Below, in pieces: positions 37,490 to 40,903 of a DNA stretch of 64,000 bases; positions within the stretch are counted from its first letter, which is position 1; each line of letters opens with the position of its first letter. The notes below the pieces were generated by a model. The model searched no databases. It saw nothing but the letters and a program-made list of their open reading frames with translations, and was not told the DNA's origin. Origin of the DNA: an uncultured Opitutia bacterium (GTDB lineage: Bacteria; Verrucomicrobiota; Verrucomicrobiia; Opitutales; Opitutaceae); contig CAIQQB010000134.1 in NCBI GenBank assembly GCA_903873805.1, forward strand, positions 1-64,000, in the 5' to 3' direction. A program made the position numbers and the translations under genes.

Positions 37490-37882
37490 TCAGGTGATGT
37501 TGCCGGTGATGGCGACCTTCAGCTGCCGGAGGTCGTGGCTGATGAGATCGGTGAGATATTCGTAGTCCGCGTGGTTCTTGTTCATCGCGAGCAACTCGCT
37601 CTCCATTTCGACGCTGTTGCCGTCGGGCCGGACGGAGCGGACGGTGGGATCCTCGGCGAGATGCGGCGTGAGGGCGGCGACGTCGTCCGGGCTGGGCATC
37701 CCGCCCGCGGCGAACTGGCTGCGCAGCGCCGTGGCGAAATCCGGGGCGACATCGAGCCGGCGGAAACCCGGCGTCTCCGAGTTGGCGATGTTAGTGGCAA
37801 TGGCCTGCTGCCGGAGCACGGAGGCATCCAGGAGCTTTTGCGCCAACTGGTAGTTGACGGAGTTGGCCACGGGTTCGATCAT
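37490..37882 (-). CDS. flgB: Proximal rod protein FlgB
   Basis: The protein has 130 residues from the ATG at 37882; longer readings upstream run through the promoter and are not real. The motif AIATNIANSETPGFRRLDVAPDFATAL and the C-terminal NKNHADYEYLTDLISHDLRQLKVAI are typical. It is the first gene of unit A. No Shine-Dalgarno precedes the ATG and a strong sigma-54-like element lies only about 14 bases upstream. Confidence 0.95.
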   Translation of the reverse strand: MIEPVANSVNYQLAQKLLDASVLRQQAIATNIANSETPGFRRLDVAPDFATALRSQFAAGGMPSPDDVAALTPHLAEDPTVRSVRPDGNSVEMESELLAMNKNHADYEYLTDLISHDLRQLKVAITGNIT

Positions 37883-37894
37883 CACGACCGATTT

Positions 37895-37911
37895 AGCACT
37901 GTTGGTGCCAG
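37895..37911 (-). promoter_or_regulatory. Sigma-54 promoter of flagellar unit A
   Basis: On the minus strand CTGGCACCAACAGTGCT matches the sigma-54 consensus closely: TGGCAC is perfect at -24 and TGC is present at -12 with exact spacing. The predicted start is about 37884, two bases ahead of the flgB ATG. This is the strongest promoter-like match I see in the window. Confidence 0.75.
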
Positions 37912-38015
37912 CCAGCTTGGTGCGGTTGTTAATAAAACGGGGACAGCAGGATGCGGATGTAATAGTTCGCCACCCCCGGACCGGGTCACCGCCGCCCGCG
38001 CACAGGGGCAAAATT

Positions 38016-38066
38016 TTCCCGGCGGGGAATGACGCGCCAGACGGAATCGGGGTGAATATTTCCCCG
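38016..38066. promoter_or_regulatory. Two dyads in the flgB / HD-GYP divergent region
   Basis: TTCCC-GGCG-GGGAA (38016-38029) and CGGGG-N9-CCCCG (38048-38066) lie in the 252-base divergent gap, 130-180 bases upstream of the flgB promoter. The surrounding blocks AAATTTTCCCGGC and ATATTTCCCCGGC are also near-direct repeats about 45 bases apart. They could bind a shared regulator; no protein can be named. Confidence 0.3.
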
Positions 38067-38134
38067 GCTGCGCCGATTAGGACGGTGGACCGAAGCCCAT
38101 CCATCCGACCGACCTTCCACCTGGCACCCTCTGC

Positions 38135-39406
38135 GTGCAAACAACCGACCCCAGCATCGCTCACCCGTTGCTCATCGTTGACGATGAACCGCGCGTGCTC
38201 GCGTCCCTGAAAGAAGTCCTCGAACGCCAGGGCTACAGTGTCGTGACTTCGAGCGACGCGCTGCGCGCCCTCGAGCTGATGCGCCGCCAGACGTTTGCCG
38301 TCGTGGTGTCGGACCACCTCATGCCCAACATGACGGGCCTCGAGTTTCTGGTCGAGTGCCAGCGCATCCAGCCGCAGGCGAGCCGCATTCTGGTCACCGC
38401 CGTGCTGTCGCTGCCGACCCTGGTCGAGGCGATCAACAAGGGGGAGATCTACCGCTTCATCGCCAAGCCCTGGCTGCGTGAGGAACTCGCCGCCACCATC
38501 CGCAACGCCGTCAACCGCTATGAGCTACTGGTGCAGAACCAGCGGCTGCTCGAGGAGTCGTCCGAGCTCAACCGCCAGCTGCAGGCCGCCAACACCGCGC
38601 TCGGCACCCAGGTGCAGCAGCTCGAATCGCAGCGCCGCGACCTCGACCAGCTCAACCTCGAACTCGGCCGTCGCTATGACCATTCGCTCGAGCTCTGCAG
38701 CCGGATCCTCGCCACCTACGACCCCTTCCTGGCCGGCCAGACCCGGGCCGTGGCGACGGTGGTCGGGCAGATGAGCGCCGACGAACACTTCACCGACGAG
38801 GAGCGCCATGTGCTGAAGACGAGCGCGTGGCTCTGCGACCTCGGGCTCATTGGCGTCTCCCGCGAACTGCTCCGGACCTTCCGCAGCAATCCGGAGCGGC
38901 TGACCGAACGCGAGCTGGATAGCATCCACAGCCACCCGATCTACAGTCAGACCCTGACCTCGCACCTGGACGGCCGCGGTGCCGTCGGTGAAACCGTGCG
39001 CGCCCATCATGAGTGCTTTGACGGCACCGGCTACCCCGACGGCCTCTCCGCCATGGCGATTCCCTGGACCGCCCGGTGCCTCGCCGTCGCCGTCTGGTTT
39101 GTCGAGTGCAGCCTGCCCACCGATGAGGCGGTCGACTCCGTCACCGCGCAATCCGGCAAGGCACTCGATCCCGAGGCCGTCCGGCTCTTCCTCAAGACCA
39201 CCCGGGTCCGGCCCCTGCCGCGCAGCGTGCGGGAGATCATGATCGAGGATCTCCATCCCGGCATGGTGCTGGCCAACGGGCTCTACAGTCCGCACGGCTT
39301 GCTGCTGGTCGGCGAGGGCCAGGCGTTAAGCGCCGCCACCATCATGAAAATCCGCAACCACAACCTCATTACCCCGATCAGCCAGCGGTTGCTGGTGTAC
39401 TCCTGA
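38135..39406 (+). CDS. Response regulator with degenerate HD-GYP domain
   Basis: This 423-residue protein starts at GTG. Residues about 10-125 form a receiver domain with the acid pair D16/D17, acceptor Asp60 (VVVSDHLMP) and Lys111. A coiled coil (residues 130-180) leads to an HD-GYP-like domain. The domain keeps HHECFDGTGYPDG (residues 291-303), but the HD pair reads Cys234-Asp235 (AWLCDLGLIG), and the later VAD motif reads VAV (Val320). Loss of these metal ligands suggests it no longer cleaves cyclic di-GMP and may act as a sensor. It is divergent from flgB and 6 bases ahead of cheD. Confidence 0.88.
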   Translation: MQTTDPSIAHPLLIVDDEPRVLASLKEVLERQGYSVVTSSDALRALELMRRQTFAVVVSDHLMPNMTGLEFLVECQRIQPQASRILVTAVLSLPTLVEAINKGEIYRFIAKPWLREELAATIRNAVNRYELLVQNQRLLEESSELNRQLQAANTALGTQVQQLESQRRDLDQLNLELGRRYDHSLELCSRILATYDPFLAGQTRAVATVVGQMSADEHFTDEERHVLKTSAWLCDLGLIGVSRELLRTFRSNPERLTERELDSIHSHPIYSQTLTSHLDGRGAVGETVRAHHECFDGTGYPDGLSAMAIPWTARCLAVAVWFVECSLPTDEAVDSVTAQSGKALDPEAVRLFLKTTRVRPLPRSVREIMIEDLHPGMVLANGLYSPHGLLLVGEGQALSAATIMKIRNHNLITPISQRLLVYS

Positions 39407-39412
39407 TTCTCC

Positions 39413-39934
39413 ATGGTCAGCTCCCCCACCCTCACGAAGGTGTTCGCCCAGCGCATCGTCGTCGGGGTCGCCGAGTTTGCCGTGGCCAGTTCGCCGCAGG
39501 TCACCCTCAGCACCTTTGCGCTGGGTTCCTGCATCGGCGTGGCCGCCTATGACCCGGAGACGCAGGCGGGCGGTCTGCTGCACCTGATTCTCCCCGATTC
39601 TTCGTCCTCGCCCGCCAAGGCCCGGCGCCAGCCCGGCATGTTCGCCGACACCGGGTTGCCCGCACTCTTTGCGGCCCTCGATGGCGTGCACGCCGACCGG
39701 TCGCGACTCCGCCTCTTTATCGCCGGCGGGGCCTCGCCCCTGGCCGGATCGGATCTGTTCAAGCTGGGTGAGCGCAACCTGGCCGCGGTGCTGCGGTTCC
39801 TCGAGGCCGAGGGTTGCCACCAGTTCAGCTGCCAGGTCGGCGGCACCATCAACCGCACGCTGCATCTCAACATTGGCACCGGCCAGCTGGCCATCAAGCT
39901 CCCGGACCGCACCCTCGATTTCGCCCTCCTCTGA
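39413..39934 (+). CDS. cheD: Chemoreceptor glutamine deamidase CheD
   Basis: This 173-residue protein matches CheD: TFALGSCIGVAAYDPETQAGGLLHLILPDSS carries the catalytic Cys and His, followed by GMFADTGLPALFAALDGVHADRSRLRLFIAGGASPL and LGERNLAAVLRFLEAEG. CheD deamidates receptor glutamines and interacts with CheC-type proteins. No receptor, cheA, cheW or cheC gene is in the window. It is co-oriented with the HD-GYP gene 6 bases upstream. Confidence 0.9.
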   Translation: MVSSPTLTKVFAQRIVVGVAEFAVASSPQVTLSTFALGSCIGVAAYDPETQAGGLLHLILPDSSSSPAKARRQPGMFADTGLPALFAALDGVHADRSRLRLFIAGGASPLAGSDLFKLGERNLAAVLRFLEAEGCHQFSCQVGGTINRTLHLNIGTGQLAIKLPDRTLDFALL

Positions 39935-39960: not shown

Positions 39961-40830
39961 TCAGGCGGCGATCGGTCCGGCGCCCAGTTGGGTGCGCAGC
40001 AGCTTGGTCGCCCGCTCCAGCACCTCTGGCATGGCGGTCTCGAGCACCGCGGGCTCCAAGCCCCACTCCGCCAGCAGGGTCGTATTCAAGGCATAGAGAA
40101 AGCCGTCCTCCCCCTGGCCCAGACCCAGCGCCACCGCCAGATGCTGTGCGGCGTGCACATGCGCCGCGAGCGCCCGGTGCTCCGGCGCGAGCAGCCGCTC
40201 ATCCGGCGGGTTGTGCGCCGCAATCGCGATGCAGGCCGCCGGGAAACGCCATTCCTCCAGCAGGCGCGCGCTCACGTTGGCGTGGTTGAAGCCAAGAATC
40301 GCCGTCTCCGCCTCGAGCCATGGGCCACCGTGCTCGAGCTGATGGTTCCGGATCCGCGGGATGTCGCCGCCGCAGGCATGGGCCAGCGCAAGTTTGCCGA
40401 TCTCATGCACCAGGCCGCAGGTGTAGGCGAGGGCCGGATCAGCCCGCCCCGTCTGCTCGGCCAGCACTTCCGCGGCCAGCGCCTTGACCAGCGAGGCCCG
40501 GCAGAAATCCCCGGCCTCCCAGCGGTAGCCCTCCACTTCGATTGTCATCCACCGCGCTCCCAGGGCCAGCGCCGCCAGCCGGTAAATTTCCCGCCCACCC
40601 ATCCGCATGACCGCCTCCGCCACCGACTGCACGGTGGCCCCGCCGGAAAAATAGGCCGAATTGGCCAGCCGCACGGTGGACGCCGCCAGCACGGGGTCGA
40701 GCTGGATGAGCTGAGCCAGGTCCGCGACGTCGGAGTCCGGCTGTTCCAGCAGGCGGATGAGGCGCGGCAGCAACGACGGCGAGCAGGGCAACGTGCGCGC
40801 CTTGGCACAGACTTCGTGGAGGGTGGGCAT
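39961..40830 (-). CDS. HDOD domain signalling protein
   Basis: This protein of about 289 residues (ATG at 40830; ATG 40869 or GTG 40875 are alternatives) is an HDOD domain: LPCSPSLLPRLIRLLEQPDSDVADLAQLIQLDPVLAASTVRLANSAYFSGG, then VAEAVMRMGGREIYRLA and LAYTCGLVHEIGKLALAHA. HDOD proteins are HD-related regulators linked to motility and stress, usually without known catalysis. It ends tail-to-tail with cheD. Confidence 0.85.
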   Translation of the reverse strand: MPTLHEVCAKARTLPCSPSLLPRLIRLLEQPDSDVADLAQLIQLDPVLAASTVRLANSAYFSGGATVQSVAEAVMRMGGREIYRLAALALGARWMTIEVEGYRWEAGDFCRASLVKALAAEVLAEQTGRADPALAYTCGLVHEIGKLALAHACGGDIPRIRNHQLEHGGPWLEAETAILGFNHANVSARLLEEWRFPAACIAIAAHNPPDERLLAPEHRALAAHVHAAQHLAVALGLGQGEDGFLYALNTTLLAEWGLEPAVLETAMPEVLERATKLLRTQLGAGPIAA

Positions 40831-40903
40831 GGCAGGTGGGGCCGCGGCACCGCGCGACACGACCTGCATCGGCACAATGGCGAAAAGCTTGAAGGCCGCC
40901 GGG

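Follow-up and report, generated by a model that had tools for sequence, protein, structure and literature searches.

A flagellum-linked family of response regulators with a degenerate, probably catalytically dead HD-GYP domain

The closest described systems to a response regulator with a degenerate HD-GYP domain range from active enzymes to proteins that have lost catalysis, and we summarize them here. In the phosphodiesterase PmGH, changing any of six among its eight metal ligands to alanine essentially abolishes activity, mutants of K225 and D308 behave similarly, and the E185 and D305 mutants retained some activity (PMC4159591). Residue D222 of PmGH bridges two irons, the G-site lies by Y285, which contacts a phosphate, and loop L10/11 positions R314 and K317 against one guanine (PMC4159591). 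The same source describes Bd1817 of Bdellovibrio as an inactive HD-GYP protein with a di-iron centre, in which the Tyr of GYP is absent. DvhD of Desulfovibrio vulgaris, a membrane receptor with a PAS domain, carries SQ in place of HD and binds cyclic di-GMP (c-di-GMP) without metal; a PAS/HD-GYP fragment of it does so with a Kd of about 99 nM (PMC13090378). Its loop holds R650, Y652 and R653, and the R650A or Y652A/R653A changes weakened stabilization by c-di-GMP (PMC13090378).

Two further precedents are regulators rather than enzymes or receptors. HnoD of Shewanella oneidensis is a degenerate HD-GYP response regulator lacking phosphodiesterase activity that acts by protein contact, suppressing the EAL protein HnoB (PMC6335343). 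The HD-GYP domain of NosR from Burkholderia pseudomallei is also degenerate, reading HG-GTP (PMC12570481). In the titles and abstract openings of the literature on HD-GYP proteins in Verrucomicrobia or Opitutaceae, on CheD and chemotaxis, and on Verrucomicrobia flagella and c-di-GMP, we did not meet the family described below; the literature pairing HD-GYP with Verrucomicrobia included a methanotroph genome paper.

The regulator studied here lies in a window of 64,000 nucleotides (the whole stretch of DNA that was analysed) from an uncultured Opitutia bacterium of the Opitutaceae. The gene, its domains and its immediate neighbours are as follows.

38135..39406, plus strand: response regulator gene with a degenerate HD-GYP domain, 423 amino acids, GTG start
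38168..38509, plus strand: receiver domain, residues 12-125 (PF00072, Response_reg, 2.5e-21)
38510..38686, plus strand: helical linker, residues 126-184, which AlphaFold predicts as part of a single helix running from residue 115 to 195
38687..39184, plus strand: degenerate HD-GYP domain, residues 185-350 (PF13487, HD_5, 2.2e-25)
39185..39403, plus strand: C-terminal extension, residues 351-423, mostly within the NosR model match to residues 12-410
37883..38134, no strand: intergenic region of 252 bp common to flgB and the regulator
37490..37882, minus strand: flgB, 130 amino acids, ATG start, divergent from the regulator and heading a flgB-flgC-fliE-fliF-fliG run
39413..39934, plus strand: cheD, 6 bp 3' of the regulator (PF03975, 3.3e-21)
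39961..40875, minus strand: gene for an HDOD protein (PF08668, 8.7e-45)

In layout the protein resembles the NosR family, which likewise combines a receiver, an HD domain and a C-terminal extension, and NosR (NF053512) is its best NCBIfam match, at 308.6 bits over residues 12-410. However, this score falls under the curated cut-off of 400, as do those of four other family members (320.6-344.8), and we reject NosR membership on these scores. The adjoining genes also differ, being flgB, cheD and HDOD, whereas NosR is encoded with nosP (FIST) and nosK. The likeness to HnoD is drawn from its published description, and HnoD differs in its EAL target HnoB and its tie to NO and biofilm. The Pfam scan found neither a DNA-binding domain in the regulator nor any match for the C-terminal extension, which shows a mean pairwise identity of 0.54 across the family; the linker is the least conserved stretch of the family alignment.

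With DvhD the regulator shares an HD-GYP fold without catalytic residues, and with PmGH, PA4781 and other HD-GYP phosphodiesterases it shares fold, GYP and HHE, while the catalytic ligands, the Lys and the loop of those enzymes are lost. Unlike Bd1817, it keeps the GYP Tyr and loses half of the metal ligands (at the H189, H221, D305 and E185 positions). The informative positions, given in PmGH numbering with ligand assignments from PMC4159591, were counted over 32 full-length aligned rows that include the window protein.

38738..38740, plus strand: Q202, at the position of metal ligand H189; His kept in 0/32 rows
38834..38839, plus strand: C234-D235, at the position of the HD pair H221/D222, read off the translation
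39005..39013, plus strand: H291-H292-E293 (HHE), kept (H 29/32, H 28/32, E 32/32)
39029..39037, plus strand: G299-Y300-P301 (GYP), kept (Tyr 27/32 and Phe 5/32 at the Y285 position)
39092..39094, plus strand: V320, at the position of metal ligand D305, the VAD Asp; Asp kept in 0/32 rows
39107..39121, plus strand: about residues 325-329, where eight residues of loop L10/11 are missing by alignment

These readings bear out the first-pass annotation, which had reported Cys-Asp at 234-235, Val at 320, retained HHE and GYP motifs, and an intact receiver (D16 and D17 as the acidic pair, D60 as phosphoacceptor, T88 and K111 are all present). Q202, L238, V323 and the loop deletion had gone unnoticed in that annotation. 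Losses extend to the two non-ligand positions that matter in PmGH: L238 stands at the K225 position, where only 1/32 rows keeps Lys, and V323 at the D308 position, where none of the 32 keeps Asp. At the H221 position Cys occurs in 17/32 rows and His in 5/32; Asp at the D222 position is kept in 21/32, and His at the H250 position in 28/32. Because of this combined loss, hydrolysis is very unlikely, and we reject an active HD-GYP enzyme, the equivalents of the HD pair, H189, D305 and K225 being missing. Catalytic death, proposed by the first-pass annotation from the protein itself, is thus supported by its residues and more strongly by those of the 32-row family, and the comparison with solved HD-GYP structures that it had recommended, here PmGH and DvhD, confirms the losses.

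The loss is a trait of the whole family. We searched 57 genomes (the window's own and 56 relatives) at 1e-20 or better and found a match to the regulator in 25; the G048 match consists of a receiver only. Scanning named genome contigs yielded another set of 24 loci, 7 (L033-L039) with full-length relatives, and the nearest relatives from named contigs were Opitutus and Opitutaceae MAGs at 73 and 70%. Only matches covering at least 380 residues entered the 32-row set, for which full-length open frames were the selection criterion. In a tree of 49 HD domains, drawn from 65 rows after 12 family repeats and 4 fragmentary rows were dropped, all 32 family rows form one clade (support 100/98), apart from nine reference HD-GYPs, in which HD pair and VAD Asp are intact, and from eight degenerate domains. 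Those eight (L030, L059, L061, L064, L066, L069, L072 and L077) form a second degenerate HD clade (100/100), in which HHE is also lost.

The HD domain evolves under purifying selection, with dN/dS of 0.05-0.14 for the HD part in six pairs, synonymous sites being near saturation in some. Since all 32 rows share the H189 and D305 losses and the loop deletion, belong to one clade and show low dN/dS, the residue loss and deletion are a family trait and not chance. A gene decaying towards a pseudogene could account for the catalytic loss, the missing regulator in G005 and the lone receiver in G048; however, the dN/dS values already disfavour it, as do the open frames of all 32 rows, even if rows were chosen for being full-length and open, and we consider decay extremely improbable. 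An AlphaFold model built from eight rows was of low quality over the HD domain; a second one, built from 11 rows and limited to the HD domain and C-terminal extension, improved on it (pLDDT 85.1). In the VIA comparison this second model matched DvhD (Z 20.8, rmsd 3.3, 187 aligned), PmGH (4mcw; Z 20.5, rmsd 2.7, 191 aligned) and PA4781 (Z 20.4, rmsd 2.3, 183 aligned), which are tied as the closest solved folds; Bd1817 gave Z 15.1-16.7 over four entries. The modelling thus shows a predicted HD-GYP fold for the output domain; the structural matches hardly reach into the C-terminal extension, to which we assign no solved fold.

In the 57 genomes searched, the regulator was found only together with a flagellar switch gene. 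It occurs in 25/31 genomes with FliG and in 0/26 without, with p 7.5e-11 in a Fisher's test that treats related genomes as independent. CheB is found in 21/25 genomes with the regulator vs 11/32 without (p 0.0004), and GGDEF, matched at 1e-5, in 17/25 vs 14/32 (p 0.11), two of the 17 (G038 and G045) having a weak match only. GGDEF was not detected at 1e-5 in 8/25 regulator genomes, of which six are 96-97% complete, one 91% and one 64%, and neither EAL nor PilZ was detected in any of the 25 at a threshold of 0.001. EAL occurs in 2/6 FliG genomes without the regulator vs 0/25 with it (p 0.03), a post hoc result that is a hint only. Thus, the regulator tracks the flagellum more closely than it tracks c-di-GMP. 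The flagellar link put forward by the first-pass annotation is supported by this co-occurrence and by gene order: flgB does run divergently on the minus strand, 252 bp away, as that annotation had stated.

Gene order around relatives extends this picture. Upstream flgB is divergent in 20/31 loci, and CheD is present in 15/31 (on the opposite strand in L086). The order typical of Opitutaceae is divergent flgB followed by cheR-cheB-regulator-cheD, often with HDOD; in L094 the CheR and CheB identities were confirmed by Pfam, and 12/24 loci from genomes have a CheB domain no more than about 3 kb from the regulator. In the window, a tblastn search at 1e-3 gave no hit to remains of cheR, cheB or a kinase between flgB and the regulator, and MCP, cheW and cheR sit at the edge of another contig of the same genome. 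One flagellated relative, G005 (L127:3643-7891), has flgB, cheR, cheB, cheD and HDOD in the same arrangement with the regulator missing. The presence of flagellar and cheR-cheB-cheD genes there means that the regulator is dispensable. G005 is also among the two EAL genomes and three PilZ genomes of the 57.

A histidine kinase lies directly upstream of the regulator in 13/31 loci, and in L097 the two are fused. A Pfam scan of eight of these 13 kinases found HATPase_c in all eight and a PAS match in six. Control by phosphorylation, as the first-pass annotation had envisaged, is therefore plausible, since the receiver residues are kept and a kinase adjoins so many of the loci; what weakens it for the window is that a close homologue of the adjacent kinase was not found in its own genome at 1e-45, a search that also missed divergent kinases beside the regulator in G008, G012 and G019. 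The adjacent-kinase query gave 18 kinase matches in that genome, the best-scoring at 30% identity. As a cognate kinase none of these is a close candidate, and a divergent one may exist.

Several observations concern these kinases in their own right. The L097 fusion (L097:7515-10652) places a PAS kinase, a receiver and a dead HD-GYP domain in a single frame of 1046 amino acids. The phosphoacceptor His is kept in 11/13 aligned adjacent kinases and replaced by Asp in L086:5150-7336 and by Gln in L089:8586-10778. In L122, L123 and L124 (from G037, G047 and G053) a relative of the kinase is divergent from flgB, and the regulator was not found beside it.

Since relatives share the loss of both the catalytic residues and the loop and accompany flagella, we suggest that contact with other proteins is the domain's most likely mode of action, and that the HD-GYP output may have been turned into a protein-interaction module. 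Our preferred reading, which we hold to be probable, is that the regulator is a phosphorylation-switched, nucleotide-independent, protein-binding module of the flagellar and chemotaxis system. D60 would be phosphorylated by the histidine kinase in loci that have one next to the regulator, and possibly by CheA in the window's genome, which would change the arrangement of a coiled-coil dimer through the linker. This change would expose or hide a surface, formed by the HD domain and C-terminal extension, for a putative flagellar or chemotaxis partner, and no nucleotide would be needed for the switch. Against this reading, a GGDEF match occurs in 17/25 regulator genomes, among them the window's own. 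Additionally, GYP, HHE and a four-residue set of metal ligands (D222/H250/H276/H277, in 21/32 rows) are kept, which may exceed the needs of a purely structural role, and neither the G005 arrangement nor the lone receiver of G048 fits it easily.

The main alternative is a phosphorylation-gated c-di-GMP receptor that, like DvhD, binds without cleaving, much as the first-pass annotation had supposed. DvhD is the key comparison because it too is dead and yet binds c-di-GMP, showing that a dead HD-GYP domain can do so without metal, and the predicted fold matches it as well as it matches PmGH and PA4781. Tyr 300, the counterpart of Y285, is kept, and the sole GGDEF protein detected in the window's own genome is a REC-GGEEF protein that looks active (L002:1483-2379, minus strand, contig C41). 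However, 32/32 rows lack the loop in which DvhD carries R650, Y652 and R653, and PmGH R314 and K317: the span from the D305 position to a conserved Asp at 345 is 26 residues throughout the family, vs 34 in 9/9 reference HD-GYPs (a set that excludes the fragments L057 and L058, which end before the far Asp) and 33 in DvhD. In those two fragments the VAD Asp is still present, as is an R-P-Y-K loop.

Single PmGH mutants R314A and K317A lowered hydrolysis little (PMC4159591). Losing those contacts alone thus need not abolish binding, and our argument rests on the loss of the whole loop, not of two side chains. Combined with the eight regulator genomes in which GGDEF was not detected (six being 96-97% complete) and the lack of detected EAL and PilZ in all 25, the deletion disfavours c-di-GMP binding through the known site, and the idea of binding without cleavage is not supported. 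We therefore judge the receptor reading unlikely. The nearest database model would point to a c-di-GMP phosphodiesterase, and a reader of the residues might say c-di-GMP receptor. Both assignments sit poorly with the loop deletion and the distribution, and the findings point to a flagellum-linked regulator family. We suggest a simple sequence test, in which 26 rather than about 34 residues after the VAD position would flag HD-GYPs whose binding of c-di-GMP by the known mode is improbable.

A dead domain could instead act as in HnoD, binding and inhibiting a real phosphodiesterase or acting on a cyclase. In favour of this are the suppression of HnoB by HnoD (PMC6335343) and the nearest NCBIfam model, NosR, with its degenerate B. 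pseudomallei member (PMC12570481). However, the window's own genome (94.76% complete) has one HD_5, which is the window regulator, and one GGDEF; neither EAL nor PilZ was detected there at 0.001, and there was no second HD_5. Thus, no phosphodiesterase to inhibit was found, an EAL partner of the HnoD type is rejected for this genome at that threshold, and EAL is absent from the matches of all 25 regulator genomes. A cyclase target could still apply in 17/25 genomes, and overall we regard an HnoD-like role as improbable. Neither an EAL protein nor an intact HD-GYP was found in the window's genome to degrade the product of its REC-GGEEF protein.

Equally improbable, in our estimate, is a metal or redox sensor in which a surviving single metal site gates flagellar output. 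The window protein keeps D235, H267, H291 and H292 beside C234, and these may form one metal site. The D222/H250/H276/H277 quartet is intact in 21/32 rows, including all 17 with Cys at 234, so that the window's clade may still have one metal site. A PmGH subunit with G-site iron only is essentially unchanged in structure (PMC4159591), in line with such a site. Against it, the quartet is broken in 11/32 rows and is thus not a family need.

A broader scenario would join parts of these readings: an HD-GYP phosphodiesterase converted once, in Opitutales and related Verrucomicrobiota, into a nucleotide-free, phospho-switched adaptor of the chemotaxis adaptation operon, with one Cys/Asp/His metal site in the window's clade as an additional redox or metal input for flagellar behaviour. 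We offer this as a long shot.

Two minor observations touch neighbouring subjects. A sigma-54-like -24/-12 candidate motif, TGGCACCAACAGTGC, lies at 37896-37910 on the minus strand, 28 bases before flgB, and similar candidate motifs stand 21-30 bases before flgB in 11/21 loci, the window's own included. On a Vibrio coralliilyticus plasmid (L130:1-5154), genes annotated as CheC, ATP-binding protein, EAL, HD and Hpt follow one another in a row, and the HD gene is degenerate by our reading, with HE replacing HD.
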